NCBI GenBank assembly: GCA_030835135.1
Contig: JAUQWO010000004.1
Coordinates: 1-64,000 of the forward strand
Direction: 5' to 3'
DNA: 64,000 nucleotides
DNA from: Bacteroidota bacterium
Lineage (GTDB): Bacteria > Bacteroidota > Ignavibacteria > UBA10030 > UBA6906
Position 1 is the first letter of the stretch. Every line of letters starts with the position of its first letter. The notes below the pieces were generated by a model. That model was not told the DNA's origin. It worked only from the letters and a program-made list of their open reading frames with translations, and searched no databases. Positions 23,742 to 33,166 of this stretch are shown in pieces. The translations under genes were made by a program, and so were the position numbers.

Positions 23742-25196
23742 ATGCGCGATACCATCCAATTCCTTGTGAACGGCGAACCCGCGCGGATCGACCTCGGCCC
23801 GGGGTCGCCCTGGCGGCCCACCACGACGGTCCTGCAGTATCTCCGGGCCCACCCGGAGTACCGTGGCGTGAAGGAAGGATGCGCGGAGGGCGATTGCGGA
23901 GCATGTACGGTGGTCCTGGCGGAGGATGGGACAGACGGTGCCCTGCAGTACCGGGCCGTCGATTCCTGCCTTCTGTTCCTCCCGACCCTTCACCGGAAGA
24001 ACCTGATCACGATCGAAGGACTCCGCGCAACCGATGGAGCGCTGCATCCCGTCCAGGATGCGATCGTCCGTCATTCGGGCAGCCAATGTGGATTCTGCAC
24101 CCCCGGCATCGTGATGTCCCTCTTCGCACTCTATCATACGGCAGGGGTCATCGGCAGGCATGACGTGATCGATGCGCTTGCGGGGAACCTGTGCCGCTGC
24201 ACGGGGTACCGGCCTGTTGTTGATGCCGCACTCGATTCCTGTGCGGCCCGCGGGCCGGATCACTTCAGCGCCGCTGAGCCCGGTGTTCTCCGTGCACTGG
24301 GCGCGATCCCGTCAGACGACATGCTCATCGAGACGGAGACCCAGGCCTACTGCCGTCCCGCGACGCTCGCGTTCGCCCTCCGCTACCGGAGCATCAAGCC
24401 GGAGGCGATCATCGTCAATGGTGCCACGGATGTGGCGCTACGCGTGACCAAGCGTCACGAACAGCTCGCCTCGGTCCTCGACCTCTCGGGCATCGCGGAA
24501 CTCCGGTCGCTCCGAGTGTCGCCGGCGGCTATCGACGCAGGTGCCGGGGTGACGATCGAGGAATTGCGGCGGGTGGCCACCGGCAGGATCCCCGCCCTCG
24601 CGGAGATGCTGTCAGTGTTCGGCTCGCGCCAGATCCGCAACGTGGCGACCCTCGGCGGCAATCTCGGCACCGGCTCGCCGATCGGCGATACCCTCCCCGT
24701 GCTGCTTGCGCTCGAGGCCACGGTGTCGGTGTCCGGACCCCGCGGAGAACGCGCGGTACCGATCCAGGATTTCTTTACCGGATACCGCTCCACCGCATGC
24801 GCACCGGACGAGATCATCGTTGCCGTCCATATTCCCATTCCCCCGCAGGGAACCGATGTGCGTGCGATCAAGGTGTCGCGCAGGAAAGAGCTCGACATCT
24901 CCACCGTGAGCGCGGCGATGCGGTTGCGGACCACAGGAAACGGTTCCGTGGACGAGATCGTGCTGGCGTACGGCGGGATGGCGGCAACGCCGCAACGCGC
25001 GTCGGCGACCGAGGCGTTCCTCTCCGGAAAGCCGTGGTCGCGCTCGACGGTGGAAGCGGCCATGGATGCCGTGGCCAACGACTTTGCGCCGCTCACCGAC
25101 GTCCGGGGTTCGGCGCAGTACCGCACGCTCATCGCGCGCAATGTGCTCCTGAAGTTCTGGGCCGCAACGGACGGGAAGGAGGGTGCTGCATCATGA
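23742..25196 (+). CDS. xdhA: Xanthine dehydrogenase small subunit (2x[2Fe-2S], FAD)
   Basis: 484 residues. The plant-type [2Fe-2S] ligands are Cys47, Cys52 and Cys55 (GCAEGDCGACTVV) with a fourth Cys further on. The second cluster is bound by CGFCTPGIVMS and CRCTGYRP. The FAD-binding domain (about 195-370) has GATDVALRVTKRH and NVATLGGNLGTGSPIGDTLP. The last 110 residues form the CO-dehydrogenase flavoprotein C-terminal domain. It takes electrons from the molybdenum subunit and passes them to NAD+ or another acceptor. The ATG at 23742 starts just before the Fe-S domain and almost at the predicted transcript start. The stop overlaps xdhB (ATGA). Confidence 0.95.
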   Translation: MRDTIQFLVNGEPARIDLGPGSPWRPTTTVLQYLRAHPEYRGVKEGCAEGDCGACTVVLAEDGTDGALQYRAVDSCLLFLPTLHRKNLITIEGLRATDGALHPVQDAIVRHSGSQCGFCTPGIVMSLFALYHTAGVIGRHDVIDALAGNLCRCTGYRPVVDAALDSCAARGPDHFSAAEPGVLRALGAIPSDDMLIETETQAYCRPATLAFALRYRSIKPEAIIVNGATDVALRVTKRHEQLASVLDLSGIAELRSLRVSPAAIDAGAGVTIEELRRVATGRIPALAEMLSVFGSRQIRNVATLGGNLGTGSPIGDTLPVLLALEATVSVSGPRGERAVPIQDFFTGYRSTACAPDEIIVAVHIPIPPQGTDVRAIKVSRRKELDISTVSAAMRLRTTGNGSVDEIVLAYGGMAATPQRASATEAFLSGKPWSRSTVEAAMDAVANDFAPLTDVRGSAQYRTLIARNVLLKFWAATDGKEGAAS

Positions 25197-27502
25197 GCAT
25201 GCCCCTCCTGCATGAGAGCGCCGTGGGCCATGTGACCGGCGAAGCGCAGTACATCGACGATCTGTCGCATCCGGAACGGCTGCTCGCGGGGCGCGTGGTG
25301 TACGGTCCGCATGCGCACGCACGGGTCGTGACATTCGATCTTACGGCCGCGCGTTCCATTCCGGGAGTCCGTGCCGTGCTGAGCGCCAGGGACATCCCCG
25401 GTGAGAATCAGGTCGGACCGGTGGTGCACGATGAAGTGTTGCTTGCCGACGATGAGGTCACCTTCATCGGCCAGGCGGTCTTCCTCATTGCGGCGGATTC
25501 GGACGAACTCTGCCGCGAGGCCGAACGTGCGATCGCCGTGGAGTACGAGCAACTGCCCGCTGTTCTGGACCTGCCCTCCGCCATGGCAGCCGGCGCACTG
25601 ATGGGACCCCCGCGGCGCATCCTCCGCGGCGATCCGGCGGGGGCGATCGGGAAGGCACTGCACCGCATCAGCGGCGAACTCGAGACCGGTGCGCAGGAGC
25701 ACTGGTACCTCGAGACACAGGCCGCGCTGTGCGTGCCCGCGGAAGACCGGCGCATGCTCGTGTACAGCTCTACCCAGCATCCGTCGGAGACCCAGACCCT
25801 GGTCGCGGAGGTGCTTGGCTGGCCACGCAACGCCGTGGAGGTGGAGGTCCGCCGACTCGGCGGCGGGTTCGGCGGCAAGGAGACACAGGCGAACCATACC
25901 GCGTGCTGGGCAGCCGTGCTCGCGCATGCAACGGGGCGGCCGGTGAAGATCCGGCTATTCCGCGATGACGATATGATCATGACCGGCAAACGCCACCGGT
26001 TCCTCTCGCGCTACGAGGCGGGGTTCGATGCGGAGGGCGTGCTCCAGGGTGTTGCCATCGAGCTGAACAGCGATGGCGGTGCCACAACGGACCTCTCGTT
26101 CGCGATCCTCGAACGGGCCATGCTGCACGCGGACAACAGCTACTTCGTCCCGGACTTCGGCGTCACGGGTTCGGTCTGGAAGACGAACCTCCCGTCGAAC
26201 ACGGCGTTCCGCGGGTTCGGCGGTCCGCAGGGCATCGCGGTGATGGAGACCATCATCGACAGGATCGCACGCACGCTCGGACGTGACGCGGCGGAGATCC
26301 GCAGGAAGAATTTCTATCGCGCCGCACCGGCCGACACGACGCACTACGGACAGGTTGTCGAGGACAACCGCCTCGCGCTGATCCACGACAGGCTGATGGC
26401 GTCATCGGGCTATACGCAACGGCGCGCCGCCGTGGCTGCGTTCAACGCAGGAAGCGCATTCGTCAGGCGCGGCATCGCCCTCACCCCGGTGAAGTTCGGC
26501 ATCTCGTTCACCACCACGTTCCTCAACCAGGCAGGTGCGCTGGTGCACATCTATACGGACGGCACGGTGCTCGTGAGCCATGGCGGCGTGGAGATGGGGC
26601 AGGGGTTGCACACCAAGATCCGGGGCATCGCCGCCGCGGAACTCGGGATCGATCCGGCGCGGGTGCGCGTGGGTGCGACGAACACGGCGAAGGTCCCGAA
26701 CACCTCCGCCACGGCGGCGTCCTCCGGCGCCGACCTCAACGGCATGGCGGTCAGGAATGCCATCGACACCATCAAGACACGGATGTCTGCGGCGCTCTCT
26801 GAAAAACTTTCACCGGGCGCAGGGGGCGAGCCATCCCGTGCCGCCGACCTGCGGTTCGCGGCCGGCCGCATCGTGGACAGCGTGCATCCGGAGCGCGCGA
26901 TCACATTCGACGAGGCCGTGCGGTGGCTCTATCTCCAGCGCATCGGTCTGAGCGCTGCCGGATTCTACAGCACGCCGGGTATCGGGTGGGACCGTGACGC
27001 GGGGCGCGGCACGCCCTTCCTGTACTATGCATTCGGGATGGCCGTCAGTGAGGTGAGCGTTGACCTGCTCACGGGTGCGCACACGGTCGAGCGCGTGGAC
27101 ATCCTGCACGATGTCGGGGATTCGCTCAATCCGGCCATCGACCGCGGACAGGTGGAGGGCGGGTTCGTGCAGGGACTGGGTTGGTGCACCACGGAGGAGA
27201 TCCTCTGGGATGCGCGCGGAACACTCATGACGCATTCGCCCGATACGTACAAGATCCCGACCGCCGGGGACGTTCCGGAGGACCTTCGTGTTGCACTGGT
27301 GGACGGGGTCCCGAATCCGCATGTCATCAGGAACAGCAAGGCGGTGGGTGAGCCGCCATTCATGCTCGCACTGTCCGTCTGGCTCGCGATCAAAGACGCC
27401 CTGTCGTCGATCGCCGGCCATACGGTCGAGCCTCAGTTCTCACTACCCGCCACGCGCGAGAGGATCGCGCTGGAGGCGGAACGTCTGCGCCGGCTGGCAT
27501 GA
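25193..27502 (+). CDS. xdhB: Xanthine dehydrogenase large (molybdenum) subunit
   Basis: 769 residues starting MSMPLLHESAVGHVTGEAQY in an ATGA overlap with xdhA, with GGAGGG upstream. The molybdopterin-binding blocks are GGGFGGKE, FRGFGGPQG, GGVEMGQGLHTK and KAVGEPPFMLA. The residues matching bovine Glu802 (GVEM), Arg880 (FRGF) and Glu1261 (GEPP) are all present, which favours true hypoxanthine/xanthine oxidation over aldehyde or CO oxidation. No XdhC-type cofactor-insertion gene lies in the window. Next to it are PduS- and PduT-like genes, an unusual partnership. Confidence 0.95.
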   Translation: MSMPLLHESAVGHVTGEAQYIDDLSHPERLLAGRVVYGPHAHARVVTFDLTAARSIPGVRAVLSARDIPGENQVGPVVHDEVLLADDEVTFIGQAVFLIAADSDELCREAERAIAVEYEQLPAVLDLPSAMAAGALMGPPRRILRGDPAGAIGKALHRISGELETGAQEHWYLETQAALCVPAEDRRMLVYSSTQHPSETQTLVAEVLGWPRNAVEVEVRRLGGGFGGKETQANHTACWAAVLAHATGRPVKIRLFRDDDMIMTGKRHRFLSRYEAGFDAEGVLQGVAIELNSDGGATTDLSFAILERAMLHADNSYFVPDFGVTGSVWKTNLPSNTAFRGFGGPQGIAVMETIIDRIARTLGRDAAEIRRKNFYRAAPADTTHYGQVVEDNRLALIHDRLMASSGYTQRRAAVAAFNAGSAFVRRGIALTPVKFGISFTTTFLNQAGALVHIYTDGTVLVSHGGVEMGQGLHTKIRGIAAAELGIDPARVRVGATNTAKVPNTSATAASSGADLNGMAVRNAIDTIKTRMSAALSEKLSPGAGGEPSRAADLRFAAGRIVDSVHPERAITFDEAVRWLYLQRIGLSAAGFYSTPGIGWDRDAGRGTPFLYYAFGMAVSEVSVDLLTGAHTVERVDILHDVGDSLNPAIDRGQVEGGFVQGLGWCTTEEILWDARGTLMTHSPDTYKIPTAGDVPEDLRVALVDGVPNPHVIRNSKAVGEPPFMLALSVWLAIKDALSSIAGHTVEPQFSLPATRERIALEAERLRRLA

Positions 27503-27544
27503 TGCCTGCGCGGTGAAGTCTCAGTCCATGAACCACAGGAGTCT

Positions 27545-28870
27545 ATGAAGACCGCAACACAGATACAGGACGCGATCCGGGCCGCGGGCGTCGTTGGTGC
27601 TGGTGGCGCCGGCTTCCCGTCGCACGTGAAGGCCGGGGCGAGCGTGGACACGATCATCGCCAATGGCGCCGAATGTGAGCCCCTGATCCACAAGGATTTC
27701 GAGATCATGACGCGGCATGCGGCGGAGGTCGTCCGCGGCGTGCGGCTGCTCATGCAGGCAACGGGCGCAGCGCGGGGGATCATAGGGATCAAAGAGAAGA
27801 ACGCGGCAGCGGTGAAGGCCGTGACGGCGGCGCTGGACGGCAAGGACATGACGGTGCATCTGCTCGGCGACTTCTATCCATCCGGCGACGAATACATCCT
27901 TGTCTACGAGGCCACCGGGCGTCTGATCCCGCCGCAGGGGATCCCGCTCGACGTGAAGGTGGTCGTGAACAATGTCGAGACCCTGGTGAATATCGCGCGC
28001 GCCGTGGAGGGAGAGCCGGTCACCGAGAAGTGGGTGAGCGTCGCCGGTGCCGTGAATCATCCGGTGTCGTTCACGGCGCCGCTGGGCACGCCGTTCAGCG
28101 AGCTGCTGAAGGCCGCCGGCGGCGCGACGGCCGCGGATTTCGGCTTCTTCGTGGGCGGCATCATGATGGGTGCCCTGGAGTTCGATCTGACGCAGGTCGT
28201 GACCAAGACCACGGGCGGGTTGATCGTGCTGCCCCGCGAGCATCAGCTCATCACGCGCAAGAGCCGTCCCGCGAAAGCGATGCACCGCATCGGGAAGTCG
28301 GCGTGCGACCAATGCACCTTCTGCACCGAACTCTGCCCCCGCTATCTCCTGGGCTACGATGTGCAACCGCACAAGGTGATGCGGAGTCTCGGGTTCACAA
28401 CGACCGGCGAAGCGTACTGGAACCAGTTCGCGTCGCTCTGCTGTGCCTGCGGACTCTGTACGCTGTACGCCTGTCCCGAAGGGCTGTTCCCGAAAGAAGC
28501 CTGCGACAAGGGGAAGGCCGACATGAAAGCGGCGGGGCAGAAGTGGGACGGCCGCAAGGAAGTGAAACCGCACGCCATGTATGAAGGCCGGCGGACGCCG
28601 TTGAAGCAACTCATGAAGAAGCTCGGGGTCCTGTCGTATGACCACCCATCGGCGTATACGGACACGAAGGTCACCCCGCGCACGGTGACCATCCCGCTTG
28701 CGCAGCACATCGGTGCCCCCGCGGTACCCGTTGTGTCGCCCGGCCAGCGAGTGGAACGCGGTGCGTGCATCGCGGACATTCCCGCAGGGAAGCTCGGTTC
28801 GCGCATTCACGCCAGCATCACCGGCATCGTCCGGAGCATTGATACCACCATCGTCATTGAGCAAGGATGA
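27545..28870 (+). CDS. PduS/RnfC-like flavo- and iron-sulfur electron-transfer protein
   Basis: 441 residues, close to PduS length. The N-terminal part (1-145) is the complex I 51-kDa-type FMN/NADH domain (GVVGAGGAGFPSHVK, IANGAECEPLIHKDFEIM). An SLBB-like domain follows. Two [4Fe-4S] motifs are at C254-x2-C257-x2-C260-x3-C264 and the Cys set 299/300, 302, 305 and 310. The C-terminal 60 residues form an RnfC-type barrel-sandwich (VSPGQRVERGACIADIP). In propanediol-utilising organelles PduS reduces cobalamin. Here no cobalamin enzyme is nearby, so it may pass electrons between xanthine dehydrogenase, NAD(H) and the adjacent shell protein. It follows xdhB by 42 bases with an AGGAG site. Confidence 0.9.
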   Translation: MKTATQIQDAIRAAGVVGAGGAGFPSHVKAGASVDTIIANGAECEPLIHKDFEIMTRHAAEVVRGVRLLMQATGAARGIIGIKEKNAAAVKAVTAALDGKDMTVHLLGDFYPSGDEYILVYEATGRLIPPQGIPLDVKVVVNNVETLVNIARAVEGEPVTEKWVSVAGAVNHPVSFTAPLGTPFSELLKAAGGATAADFGFFVGGIMMGALEFDLTQVVTKTTGGLIVLPREHQLITRKSRPAKAMHRIGKSACDQCTFCTELCPRYLLGYDVQPHKVMRSLGFTTTGEAYWNQFASLCCACGLCTLYACPEGLFPKEACDKGKADMKAAGQKWDGRKEVKPHAMYEGRRTPLKQLMKKLGVLSYDHPSAYTDTKVTPRTVTIPLAQHIGAPAVPVVSPGQRVERGACIADIPAGKLGSRIHASITGIVRSIDTTIVIEQG

Positions 28871-28873
28871 TCT

Positions 28874-29425
28874 ATGCAGAAGAATTCGATCGGACTCATT
28901 GAACTCTCCAGCATCGCTGCGGGCTTTCTCGTCGCGGACGCGATGTTGAAGGCCGCGGAGGTGGAGATCGTGCTCTCCCGCAGCATCTGTTCCGGGAAAT
29001 ACATGGTACTCGTCGGCGGTGATGTCGCCGCCGTCACCGCCAGCGTCGAAGCCGGCACCACGGCGGGCGAAGGGTCGGTGATCGATACCTTCGTGATCCC
29101 GAACGTCCACCCGTCGCTGTTCCCCGCCCTGGGCGGCTCCGCCACGGTCACGACGCTTGAATCGCTCGGGATCATCGAATCGTTCTCTGTGGCAACGATG
29201 ATCGAGGCCGCCGACGCCGCCGCCAAGGCAGCGAACGTGCAGATCATCGAGCTCCGCCTGGCTATGGCGCTCGGAGGGAAAGCATTCGTGACGCTCACCG
29301 GCGACGTTGCCGCGGCACAGGCAGCCGTCGATGCCGGCGCGGCCGTTGTTGCCGCGAAGGGCATGCTCGTGAATAAGGTCGTTATCCCCGCACCGCGCCG
29401 TGAACTCCTGACGGAGATCGTGTGA
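28874..29425 (+). CDS. PduT-like tandem BMC-domain shell protein
   Basis: 183 residues made of two BMC domains (about 4-85 and 95-180). The first begins SIGLIELSSIAAGFLVADAMLKAA and the second TTLESLGIIESFSVATMIEAADAAAKAA. Such proteins form trimers that look like hexagonal tiles in microcompartment shells. Cys39 in SRSICSGKYMVLVGGD matches the pore cysteine (Cys38) that holds a [4Fe-4S] cluster in PduT, so electron transfer through the trimer pore is plausible. No other shell gene (hexamer or pentamer) is present in the window. It starts three bases after the PduS-like gene and overlaps the next gene by GTGA. Confidence 0.92.
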   Translation: MQKNSIGLIELSSIAAGFLVADAMLKAAEVEIVLSRSICSGKYMVLVGGDVAAVTASVEAGTTAGEGSVIDTFVIPNVHPSLFPALGGSATVTTLESLGIIESFSVATMIEAADAAAKAANVQIIELRLAMALGGKAFVTLTGDVAAAQAAVDAGAAVVAAKGMLVNKVVIPAPRRELLTEIV

Positions 29426-30975
29426 CCCCAACCTTTCGCTTCCGCGCCGGCTCCGCCGGCATCCTGGTCCTTGCAGTCCTTCAGTTCTCGTGCGGTTCCG
29501 ACAGTCAGCTCATGCGTGCCTCACGGTCCGCCTCCGCTGCCGGCGCGGCCGCACATGTTGCCTACCTGGCATCGGATGCCCTGCTCGGGCGCAACACCCC
29601 GTCGCCCGGACTCGACAGCGCCGCCGCATACATCGCACGTCAGTTCCGGCAGGCCGGACTGCAGCCGGTGAACGGCTCCTGGATGCAGGAGGTGCGGATG
29701 CAGGTGATCGCGCTCGGCGACTCGAACGCGCTTGCACTCACGGTGAACGGGACCACCGCAGACTTCACGCTCAAGGACGACTTCGTGCCGTTCGATATGA
29801 CGGCCAACCGCCGCGTCGCGGGCGATCTGGTCTTCGCAGGATACGGCATCACGGCGGCTGACAAGAAGTACGACGACTACGAGGGCATCGATGTCCGCGG
29901 GAAGATCGTCCTCATCTTCCGTCATGAGCCGCGCGAGAATGATACCACCTCGCAGTTCAAGGGGCGGAAGGATGCGGACCGGTGGTCGCTGGCGGCAAAA
30001 GTGAAACGGGCGAAGGAACTCGGGGCCATCGGCCTGATCGTCATGAACGAGCCCCTGTCCCACATGTCGCTCGCGCCGCGCGGATTCCCGTGGCCGTCTC
30101 TGTCCCGCATCATCCCCAAAGATGCCCTGCCGATGACCCTCATGACGGACGACGCCGAGAAGATCCCGGTGATCCACGCCGGCGAACGGGTCATCACCTC
30201 GCTGTTCGGGAGCGTCGACTCGCTGAAGAAGATCCAGCAGCGCATCGATGCGGATCTGCATCCGGCATCGTTCGCATTCCGGGGCGTGACCGTTGTGCTG
30301 CGCACCTCCACGGTGGTCACGATCCACCGTGCGCAGAATGTCGTCGGCATGCTGCCGGGAACGGACAGTACGCTGCAGGATGCGCCCGTCATCGTTGGCG
30401 CTCACTATGACCATGTCGGATATAAGAAGAACGCCGCGGCGGGAGCGGATTCGATCTTCAACGGCGCCGATGACAATGCCTCGGGCACGTCGGCGCTGAT
30501 CGAGGCGGCGAAAGCGGCAGGGGCCATGGGCACGCGGCCGCTCCGGCCGATCCTGTTCATCGCGTTCGCCGGCGAGGAAAAGGGCCTGTTCGGGTCGGAG
30601 TGGTATGCCCGGCACCCGCTGTTCCCCCTTCCCCGCACACGCGCGATGCTGAACCTGGATATGGTGGGTATGAATGCCCCGGATTCGCTGCTGCTGATCG
30701 CGGAAGAACGCCACCGCTCGCTGGAGGAGACTGCCCGTGCACAGAATGGCGGCTCGGGCTTCACGCTCGTGACCTCAACGCTGGATGCAGGTGGGAGCGA
30801 TCATATGAGCTTCACGAAGCGCAATGTGCCGGCCCTCTTCTTCCATTCCGGACTGCATCCGTACTACCACAAGGTCGTTGATGAAGCATCTTTGCTGAAC
30901 CCGGACAAGATCGCCAGGGTCGCCGGACTCGTCTTCCGGACGGCGTGGACGCTGGCGGGAACCACCGATCGCTGA
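29422..30975 (+). CDS. M28-family peptidase lipoprotein with PA-like insert
   Basis: 517 residues. The GTG at 29422 forms a GTGA overlap with the shell-protein stop. The hydrophobic start AGILVLAVLQFSCG ends in a lipobox Cys, so it is probably a lipoprotein. A protease-associated-like insert lies at about 125-290. The zinc site is VGAHYDHVGY, NGADDNASGTSAL, FAGEEKGLFGSEWY, MLNLDMVGMN and GGSDHMSF, with HPYYH near the end. It would release N-terminal residues from peptides at the membrane. It is unrelated to purine breakdown, so its place behind xdh/pdu genes is notable. Confidence 0.92.
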   Translation: MTPTFRFRAGSAGILVLAVLQFSCGSDSQLMRASRSASAAGAAAHVAYLASDALLGRNTPSPGLDSAAAYIARQFRQAGLQPVNGSWMQEVRMQVIALGDSNALALTVNGTTADFTLKDDFVPFDMTANRRVAGDLVFAGYGITAADKKYDDYEGIDVRGKIVLIFRHEPRENDTTSQFKGRKDADRWSLAAKVKRAKELGAIGLIVMNEPLSHMSLAPRGFPWPSLSRIIPKDALPMTLMTDDAEKIPVIHAGERVITSLFGSVDSLKKIQQRIDADLHPASFAFRGVTVVLRTSTVVTIHRAQNVVGMLPGTDSTLQDAPVIVGAHYDHVGYKKNAAAGADSIFNGADDNASGTSALIEAAKAAGAMGTRPLRPILFIAFAGEEKGLFGSEWYARHPLFPLPRTRAMLNLDMVGMNAPDSLLLIAEERHRSLEETARAQNGGSGFTLVTSTLDAGGSDHMSFTKRNVPALFFHSGLHPYYHKVVDEASLLNPDKIARVAGLVFRTAWTLAGTTDR

Positions 30976-31001
30976 CTTCTCACTTCCACTCAAGGAGAAC
31001 C

Positions 31002-31862
31002 ATGAATCACCGCACCATGCTGTTCCTCGTCTGCGCACTCTGCTGCGCGGCTCTCACATCCCAGACCATGGCCGGCGGTCCGTACACGCTCCGGCTGGGA
31101 TTGCAGCAGGGGAAGACCTATCTGTACGCGGATGTCGTCCATGCAGACGTCACCCAGGAAATGATGGGACAGGAGATGAAATCCGCGACCGTCTCCACAA
31201 GTCTCAGCCGGTTCGTGGTCGAGAAGGCGGGGGCGGATGGGATCTCTGCCATCACGTCTCTGGACTCGATGACGGTCTCCGTGAAGAACGCGCGGATGGA
31301 CACGACGATGGTGATGCCGGACCTGCTCGGCAAGCGGTCGCGCCTCGTCCTTTCGCCGCTCGGCAGGGTCCTGAGCAAGGCCGTGATCGATACGATCGGG
31401 AAGGCGGGCTCGCCGATGCGTGGCGCCTCCGCGCGCGATGCGATGCGCGTGCACATCTTCCCGGAAGCACCCGTGGCCGTGGGTGGCACGTGGAGCGGCG
31501 TGATCGCCGATACGAATGAAGCGATGGGCGGAAAGATGGTGACCGCCTCCACGCTGACCTACACGCTGGCGGGCGAGGAGCAGAAGGGTGGCCGCGCGTG
31601 CGTGAAGATCGCCTATACGGGAACGATCGTGGTGGAGGGGAAGGGGAGCATGATGGGCGCGGAGATCTTCACGGAAGGGAAGGGGACGGTGAGCGGCGTG
31701 CTGTATTTCGATCCGGCAGCCGGCGTGACGGTCGCGGATGAATCGAAGATGGAGACGGACATGACGGCCGCCATCACGGGGGCCCAGAACATGACCATGC
31801 CGATATCGACGGTCGGTTCGAGCGCGCGGACCCTCCGTGCCGTCGTGGACACGGCGCCGTGA
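31002..31862 (+). CDS. Exported protein of unknown function (DUF6263-like)
   Basis: 286 residues. AAGGAGAA precedes the ATG at 31002. The signal peptide runs to about residue 24 (LVCALCCAALTSQTMA). The mature protein is a beta-rich single domain: YTLRLGLQQGKTYLYADVV, VSTSLSRFVVEKAGADGISAI, LSPLGRVLSKAVID, HIFPEAPVAVGGTWSG and GTVSGVLYFDPAAGVTV. The pattern of an initial L-x-x-G-x-x-Y strand and a late FD-x-x-x-G strand resembles DUF6263-type periplasmic proteins. No catalytic residue is visible. It lies between two peptidase genes and its stop overlaps the start of the next gene. Confidence 0.75.
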   Translation: MNHRTMLFLVCALCCAALTSQTMAGGPYTLRLGLQQGKTYLYADVVHADVTQEMMGQEMKSATVSTSLSRFVVEKAGADGISAITSLDSMTVSVKNARMDTTMVMPDLLGKRSRLVLSPLGRVLSKAVIDTIGKAGSPMRGASARDAMRVHIFPEAPVAVGGTWSGVIADTNEAMGGKMVTASTLTYTLAGEEQKGGRACVKIAYTGTIVVEGKGSMMGAEIFTEGKGTVSGVLYFDPAAGVTVADESKMETDMTAAITGAQNMTMPISTVGSSARTLRAVVDTAP

Positions 31863-33166
31863 CCATGCGTACGATCCTGTCCATGATCGTTGCGTGTGCC
31901 GCGATGCTTGCGGCACACCCTGCCATGGCCGCCCCCGGAGCCACAGAACTTGCGGCACGCCGCGCGCGCGTCCTGGCCGCGCTGGATACGACGGCGGCGA
32001 TGGTGCTGCGGGCTCCCGAGGAACGGAACCGCTCGGGAGATACGGGGTACAAATACCGCACCGACAGCAATCTGTTGTACCTGACCGGTGAGGACCGGCC
32101 GGGGCTCACGCTGGTCCTGGCACCCCGCGGGGTGCGTATCGGCGATACGACGGTGCATGTGGTGCTCTTCGCGAAGACGGGAATGCATGATGGGGCGCCG
32201 CCGCTGCCGGCGCTGACCGAGGGCGTGATCCGTCCGCCGGAAGACCTCAAGGCCGTGCTCGAGGAGTTGCTCCCCTCCATCCGCACGCTGTACGCCATTC
32301 CGGTCACCCCCGCGTTCATCGCCGACTGGCTGAACGCGCGGCCGCTCTTCCTCGAGCGGGACGTGAAGAAAGAACTCGAAAAGAAGTACCCGCTGCTGAA
32401 GGTCAGAAATCCGTCGCTGGTCGTCGGGCCACTACGTGCGATCAAGAGCCCCGCGGAGATCGCACAGATCCGGCGGTCGATCGTGGCAACGGGTGAGGGG
32501 CTTGCGTCAGCATTCCGCATCTGCCGGCAGGGTATGAAGGAATACGAACTGCAGGCGGCGATCGAATATCCGATGTATCGTGCAGGCGCCACGGCTCCCG
32601 CGTTCTCCTCGATCGTGGGCTCGGGTCCGAACGCGTTGATCCTGCACTACGAGCGCAATCGGCGGATGATGCAGGCCGGTGATGTGGTGGTGATGGATGT
32701 CGGTGCCGAGATCGAAGGGTATGCCGCGGACATCACGCGCACGATCCCGGTGTCCGGTACGTTCTCGGCAGAGCAGCGGATGGTGTATGACGTTGTCCTC
32801 CGCGCGCAGGAGGCGATCGTCGGCGCGATCAGACCCGGCGCGTTGTGGTCCGACCTCGACCGTGCGGCACGGGGGGTGATCGATGGGGCGGGATACGGGA
32901 AGTTCTGGCGGCATTCGGTATCGCACCATCTGGGCATCGACGTACATGACGCGGGGCCGATGGACACGCTGCGCGTGGGGATGGTGATCACGATGGAGCC
33001 GGGGGTGTACATTCCGGTGGGCGACACGACGGTAGCTCCGGGCTTCCGGGGTATCGGCATTCGCATCGAGGATGACGCCCTGGTGACGGAGCGGGGGTGT
33101 GAGGTGTTGACCCGGGCGGTGCCGAAGAGTGTGCGGGAGATCGAGCGGGCGATGAAGAAGAAGTAG
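31859..33166 (+). CDS. Exported M24 Xaa-Pro aminopeptidase (aminopeptidase P)
   Basis: 435 residues from a GTG that overlaps the previous stop (GTGA); the ATG at 31865 is an alternative. A signal peptide ends near ...AAHPAMA. The N-terminal creatinase-like domain (about 30-185) has KYRTDSNLLYLTGEDRPG. The pita-bread catalytic domain shows the dinuclear metal ligands in VVMDVGAEIEGYAADITRT (two Asp), HHLGIDVHD (His), MEPGVY (Glu) and GIRIEDDALV (Glu). It splits the bond before proline in peptides, complementing the M28 peptidase two genes upstream. It is the last gene before a strong terminator. Confidence 0.93.
   Translation: MTMRTILSMIVACAAMLAAHPAMAAPGATELAARRARVLAALDTTAAMVLRAPEERNRSGDTGYKYRTDSNLLYLTGEDRPGLTLVLAPRGVRIGDTTVHVVLFAKTGMHDGAPPLPALTEGVIRPPEDLKAVLEELLPSIRTLYAIPVTPAFIADWLNARPLFLERDVKKELEKKYPLLKVRNPSLVVGPLRAIKSPAEIAQIRRSIVATGEGLASAFRICRQGMKEYELQAAIEYPMYRAGATAPAFSSIVGSGPNALILHYERNRRMMQAGDVVVMDVGAEIEGYAADITRTIPVSGTFSAEQRMVYDVVLRAQEAIVGAIRPGALWSDLDRAARGVIDGAGYGKFWRHSVSHHLGIDVHDAGPMDTLRVGMVITMEPGVYIPVGDTTVAPGFRGIGIRIEDDALVTERGCEVLTRAVPKSVREIERAMKKK

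Follow-up and report, generated by a model that had tools for sequence, protein, structure and literature searches.

What does a shell protein of bacterial microcompartments (BMC) do in an operon with xanthine dehydrogenase (XDH)? The question is raised by a locus of an Ignavibacteria genome, assembled in 88 contigs and estimated to be 100% complete, in which xdhA and xdhB are followed by genes for a PduS-like and a PduT-like protein. The initial annotation of the window (the whole stretch of 64,000 nucleotides that was analysed) had described the shell protein as an orphan, and had proposed either a minimal purine-linked module for electron transfer or a satellite to a shell locus at another site in the genome. 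Both proposals are considered here in the light of the remainder of the genome, of its relatives and of the literature.

An operon of xdhAB, pduS and pduT

The four genes lie on the forward strand, at positions 23742-29425, and form the tight operon recognized at the outset: xdhA (23742-25196) overlaps xdhB (25193-27502) by 4 bases, 42 bases separate xdhB from the pduS-like gene (27545-28870), and 3 bases separate the latter from the pduT-like gene (28874-29425). All four reading frames are intact, with no internal stop. XdhA, the small subunit predicted to carry [2Fe-2S] and FAD (PF00941, PF03450 and PF01799), scores 533.8 bits against TIGR02963 (curated cut-off 467), and XdhB, the molybdopterin subunit, whose orthologues in relatives are 62-72% identical, scores 1035.4 bits against TIGR02965 (curated cut-off 849.5). 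Judged by these models, the enzyme is a two-subunit bacterial xanthine dehydrogenase, XdhAB. The order xdhA-xdhB-pduS is kept in all five genomes seen, from two genera (G000, G001, G002, G010 and G016), and is therefore not due to chance; in G002 the contig stops inside pduS and pduT is not covered. The operon probably extends further downstream, into a gene for an M28-family peptidase (29422-30975; PF04389, 144 bits) that overlaps pduT by 4 bases and keeps its place in both genera (same order in L043, L044 and L068), a conserved gene with no assigned family (30945-31862) and a gene for an M24/aminopeptidase-P family peptidase (31859-33166; PF00557 and PF05195), the last two in the same order in L043 and L044. 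At Rfam gathering thresholds, no structured RNA was detected in the window or in the C74 region described below.

The PduS-like protein is an RnfC-like flavoprotein, predicted to oxidize NADH and to bind FMN and two [4Fe-4S] clusters. It combines the domains Complex1_51K (PF01512), SLBB (PF10531), Fer4_17 (PF13534) and RnfC_N (PF13375) with two tetra-cysteine motifs, C254-C257-C260-C264 and C299-C302-C305-C310, whose spacing agrees with the pair of cluster motifs published for PduS of Citrobacter (PMC2982820). The four domains and the two motifs place it among the PduS proteins, and its nearest solved structures are RnfC subunits. The Citrobacter protein carries FMN as well as two [4Fe-4S] clusters, oxidizes NADH and binds PduT (PMC2982820).

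The PduT-like protein is a tandem-domain BMC-T shell protein made of two fused PF00936 domains (157 bits), and a profile search with it recovered the solved PduT structures 3pac/3n79 and 3nwg. Cys39 (motif CSGK), which had been noticed at the position where PduT holds its cluster, is invariant in the alignment of 18 homologues. Two fused BMC domains and a pore cysteine make the protein a BMC-T of the PduT type; we keep the label PduT-like because its score against the PduT equivalog TIGR02526 (119.6 bits) lies under the cut-off of 250.3. The pairing of pduS with pduT is kept through the order and in Acidobacteria. In three relatives, a short open reading frame (L045:9124-9465, L048:9620-9997 and L049:9437-9814) is inserted between the two genes; its product resembles, by eye, the four-helix-bundle proteins of 23S rRNA intervening sequences.

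Shell genes at other sites of the genome

Searches of the whole genome ruled out an orphan shell protein. PF00936 finds five BMC domains in four genes: the window gene has two of them, and single-domain genes lie on contigs C17 (two genes) and C45 (one gene). PF03319 finds three BMC-P genes, all on C45. The remark that hexameric and pentameric shell genes are lacking thus holds within the window and fails for the genome, which elsewhere has three genes each for single-domain BMC proteins and for BMC-P. The C45 locus (C45:474341-479692) encodes, in this order, three BMC-P proteins, PduL, an aldehyde dehydrogenase (AldDH), a BMC-H protein, a class II aldolase and acetate kinase (AckA). PduL has an N-terminal extension of 30 residues, and similar helix-like stretches are present at the N-terminus of AldDH and at the C-terminus of the aldolase; by eye, all three look like typical encapsulation peptides. 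A complete BMC locus with a PduS and a PduT of its own, which would make the window pair a recent copy, was sought at the two other BMC loci, C45 and C17, and neither gene was found there; the PF00936 search returned no second PduT-type gene, leaving the window copy as the only one in the genome.

A satellite BMC locus has been defined as one where only PF00936 or only PF03319 is present, in a genome that has one or more non-satellite BMC loci in addition (PMC4207490). The window locus has a single PF00936 gene, the other shell genes being on other contigs, and C45, with three BMC-P genes and one for BMC-H, is a non-satellite locus. The window locus is thus a satellite BMC locus by the published definition, and the second of the two original proposals is borne out, with the shell and the metabolosome core on C45 and C17 and a single PduT-type gene in the window.

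The MAG USDV_metabat.15 carries, in one run (L172:7041-15238), genes for P1, P2, P3, PduS, PduT, PduL, AldDH, BMC-H, aldolase and AckA, where P1 to P3 are BMC-P proteins. The gene order is that of C45 and the products are 55-73% identical to proteins of the present genome; the L172 locus looks like the one-locus form of a system that is split here.

In relatives, the scattered genes for BMC-P and BMC-H occupy conserved neighbourhoods of housekeeping type, as in FRAG microcompartments, to which no function has been assigned since their shell genes sit among housekeeping genes (PMC8217296). In the neighbourhoods viewed (L077-L096 and L070-L076), housekeeping-type genes are the only neighbours and no conserved cargo enzyme is found; by eye, they encode a sigma factor, a deformylase and a formyltransferase, a phosphoglucosamine mutase and a DprA-like protein, or a YbbR-like protein.

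One BMC-H protein of C17 (C17:111497-112009 of G000; L009:18498-19010) has a C-terminal extension that is conserved in relatives (L047, L071, L073 and L074) and ends in a Rho_N/SAP-like motif (MTVHQLR...GRQISKANK..L), with a weak match to Pfam Rho_N of 21.4 bits, under the cut-off of 24.9. EutK is a shell protein with an added domain of the nucleic-acid-binding type, and the C17 protein recalls it.

Urate genes and the pduS-pduT pair

Another contig, C74, appears from its gene content to hold a cluster of the urate-reduction type (C74:121403-130752). It encodes a PreT/PreA-like reductase of 831 residues, SsnA (NF005540, 490.5 bits, cut-off 444), YgeY (TIGR03526, 515.4 bits, cut-off 321.5), a threonine-synthase-like PLP enzyme, a second amidohydrolase and an XdhD-like protein, whose gene is partial, cut at the contig end beyond which the cluster continues. 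SsnA and YgeY, both above their cut-offs on C74, are markers of the reductive uric acid pathway, which was characterized in 2025 (PMC12507026). Of the further pathway components (YgfK or UacX reductase, XdhD, YgeW/UacY and YgeX), the candidates seen up to the contig end are the PreT/PreA-like reductase and the partial XdhD-like gene. Outside the two genera of the window, XdhB orthologues are 62-66% identical, and orthologues of the window XDH lie in or beside a urate cluster in six genomes (G022, G049, G026, G020, G015 and G039). In G022, about 25 kb hold xdhAB, xdhD, the reductase, a ygeX-like gene, pduS, pduT, ygeY, a ygeW-like gene and xdhC in this order. On one contig of G049, a full XDH-urate cluster (C82:30950-48730) lies about 22 kb from a locus for an aldolase microcompartment that has a divergent PduS/PduT pair of its own (C82:62-8765).

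Around pduS-pduT, most lineages show unrelated neighbours of housekeeping type, and purine genes appear in three contexts: xdhAB in the two genera of the window, the urate cluster in two other families of the order (f3 and f4), where the pair lies between ygeX and ygeY, and a cluster in Acidobacteria. The pair adjoins ygeX, ygeY or both in G022, G027, G028, G041, G047, G023 and further MAGs. In two Acidobacteria it is found with SsnA, an XdhA relative, carbamate kinase, a YgeW-like carbamoyltransferase that scores under the YgeW cut-off and a partial match to YgfK; the SsnA scores are close to the cut-offs applied (451.6 versus 444 and 450.2 versus 455.5), and a YgfK relative occurs in only 9 of the 29 acidobacterial genomes with PduT. 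Acidobacterial clusters of this kind, in the Terriglobia MAGs of L113 and L125, have SsnA-like, YgeW-like and YgfK-like proteins around the pair, with carbamate kinase in L125, and also encode an aminotransferase and a 436-residue protein that matches no NCBIfam model. If each context is assumed to have a 1% chance of being purine-linked, three out of ten corresponds to a rough binomial probability of ~1e-4. In a tree of concatenated PduS and PduT, XDH-linked and urate-linked pairs fall in one larger clade, and may therefore not be independent events; the acidobacterial context is separate. Thus, two to three origins are likely. The L172 pair branches just outside the main group.

The same association was seen in gene content. 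The comparison covered the 81 genomes of the order with a completeness of 85% or more: 29 of the 31 that have PduT also have YgeY, against 12 of the 50 that lack PduT (Fisher p 3.5e-10). (A PduT fragment at a contig edge in G040 was counted by hand as presence; G002, in which the contig breaks off within pduS, was scored as lacking PduT, a conservative choice.) Shared ancestry contributes to such a figure, and its effect is reduced, not removed, by shuffling within families (p ~1e-5) or by keeping one genome per genus (median p 2e-6, maximum 3.6e-4). The association concerns PduT rather than the shell: among genomes with BMC-P, YgeY accompanies PduT in 28 of 30 and occurs in 4 of 25 without it (p 4.1e-9), while BMC-P alone is not clearly associated with YgeY (p 0.06 over the 81 genomes). 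XDH was rejected as a general driver, its association with PduT being weaker than that of YgeY (p 0.004) and vanishing once YgeY is known: in a set of 60 relatives, YgeY predicts PduT among XDH-bearing genomes (p 5.5e-5), and XDH adds nothing among YgeY-bearing ones (p 0.32). The metabolosome core was rejected likewise, PduL accounting for few of the PduT genomes. The purine link of the initial annotation is thereby supported by the urate cluster of this genome, by XDH orthologues and pduST inside such clusters elsewhere, and by the phylogenetic profile.

A proposed redox port, its rivals and the known systems

We lean towards the reading that the pair oxidizes NADH as the redox port of a microcompartment whose genes are dispersed, and that this port is tied to purine and urate catabolism. 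The two-subunit XDH would convert hypoxanthine and xanthine into urate, producing NADH in the cytosol, and the C74 cluster would then degrade urate by reduction and hydrolysis. PduS, to judge from its domains and cysteine motifs, would take electrons from NADH and dock on a PduT trimer, in whose pore three Cys39 side chains would hold a predicted [4Fe-4S] cluster; the surrounding shell would consist of the BMC-H and BMC-P proteins that other parts of the genome encode. By analogy, the most likely electron route would run from NADH through PduS and PduT to an acceptor of higher potential across the shell, and would regenerate NAD+. Since the published potential of the PduT cluster is about +99 mV (PMC2982820), PduT would be an electron outlet and not a source for urate reduction, which such a cluster cannot drive; the chemical link must therefore be indirect. 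XDH makes NADH and the reduction of urate uses up reducing power; the tie is most likely one of redox balancing, and we infer that PduS and PduT act in the redox balance of the purine pathway. A targeting helix on the XDH was ruled out: no targeting-type extension was seen on XdhA or XdhB, where the family models span nearly the full length and leave no space for one. The enzyme is therefore probably cytosolic, outside the shell.

The main rival to this port holds that PduS and PduT serve only the aldolase metabolosome of C45, taking over from an alcohol dehydrogenase the re-oxidation of the NADH that AldDH makes, and that they came to lie behind xdhAB by historical accident. Indeed, no alcohol dehydrogenase was seen in the C45 locus, the L172 locus carries the pair within a single aldolase/AldDH/PduL/BMC-P locus, divergent pairs of G049, G038 and G015 sit in comparable loci, and PduS/PduT were present in 57 of 57 GRM5 loci surveyed (PMC6325248). 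The L172 arrangement suggests that the aldolase metabolosome may be the home of the pair, which may have begun there and then been recruited, or may serve both systems. As its only function, the aldolase role nevertheless appears rather unlikely: of the 60 relatives, 28 have PduT, yet 8 have PduL and 7 a BMC-type AldDH, and PduT tracks YgeY even in PduL-negative genomes (19/21 versus 7/31, p 2.3e-6). Most PduT genomes are without the metabolosome AldDH and PduL, and the existence of such genomes with both PduT and YgeY speaks against the aldolase role being the general one.

Ecology can also produce correlated profiles, and PduT and the urate cluster could be retained together by an anaerobic, detritus-feeding life style, with no direct tie and with adjacencies due to chance. 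The unrelated neighbours of the pair in most lineages and the weak link in Acidobacteria would fit this explanation, which we judge unlikely since the shell itself fails to track YgeY (among genomes without PduT, YgeY occurs in 4 of 25 with a shell and 8 of 25 without) and the pair is physically linked to purine genes in three lineages. That XDH, PduS and PduT form an electron-transfer complex with no shell, as the stand-alone module had implied, is very improbable. The tightness of the operon would suit such a complex, as would G040, where PduS and a PduT fragment were found and BMC-P was not. However, the G040 assembly is fragmented, BMC-P genes are present in 30 of the 31 PduT-bearing genomes of the order, and the present genome has a complete shell set. 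Overall, the initial annotation is partly supported: right about the satellite, broadly right about purines, wrong about the module.

The interesting part is the wider pattern across genomes, more than the window operon itself. A shell protein that follows the urate pathway, its gene sometimes lying inside the cluster, provides a testable substrate for FRAG-type microcompartments, and a pair kept almost only where urate breakdown without oxygen is encoded hints at the role of a class of organelles to which no function has been assigned. If the redox port is real, the range of PduS and PduT would no longer be confined to cobalamin and glycyl-radical chemistry, in which their role is itself unsettled (PMC6325248), and anaerobic urate breakdown may gain a redox partner. 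It is more doubtful that the dispersed Ignavibacteria microcompartments, which in most genomes are without the aldehyde core, are purine or urate organelles, or become so with PduS/PduT as electron port; their chemistry would then differ from that of aldehyde metabolosomes and from that of the Firmicutes Xau type. In the open-access literature searched, from which most subscription journals are missing, we found no earlier description of pduST with urate or XDH genes, nor of a shell protein linked to the reductive urate cluster.

The pair resembles the PduS/PduT of PDU and GRM loci (PMC2982820, PMC6325248) in gene adjacency, PduS domains and cysteine motifs, and in the pore motif C-[PSA]-G-K. 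It differs from them in that the partners are xdhAB and the locus shows no cobalamin or glycyl-radical enzyme, the shell genes are on other contigs, and the PduT-like protein falls under the equivalog cut-off. PVM-like aldolase metabolosomes have their counterpart in C45, with its class II aldolase, AldDH, PduL, AckA and BMC-P triplet, although C45 is without PduS/PduT and the pair sits with xdhAB. The xanthine microcompartment predicted in Firmicutes, Xau (PMC6620236; named BUF1 in PMC8156839), also links XDH genes to BMC shell genes around a purine substrate. However, a single Xau locus holds the full shell together with amidohydrolases and has no AldDH, whereas here the shell is dispersed, with no complete shell beside the purine enzymes, the urate markers are reductive, and an AldDH and PduL core is present at C45, though most PduT-bearing relatives are without both; the text of PMC6620236 contains none of PduS, PduT, YgeW and YgeY. 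With the reductive uric acid pathway known from E. coli and C. difficile (PMC12507026), the clusters share SsnA, YgeY and XdhD-like proteins and, in relatives, also YgeX-like and YgeW-like ones; in contrast to it, ignavibacterial clusters can hold PduS/PduT between ygeX and ygeY, and the sections consulted of PMC12507026 name no shell protein. Finally, as in the FRAG and satellite loci described for Ignavibacteriae and their relatives (PMC8217296), the shell genes occupy several sites, three in this genome, and include a BMC-P triplet; in contrast to those loci, the triplet belongs here to one enzyme-bearing locus, and PduS/PduT have a likely metabolic link.
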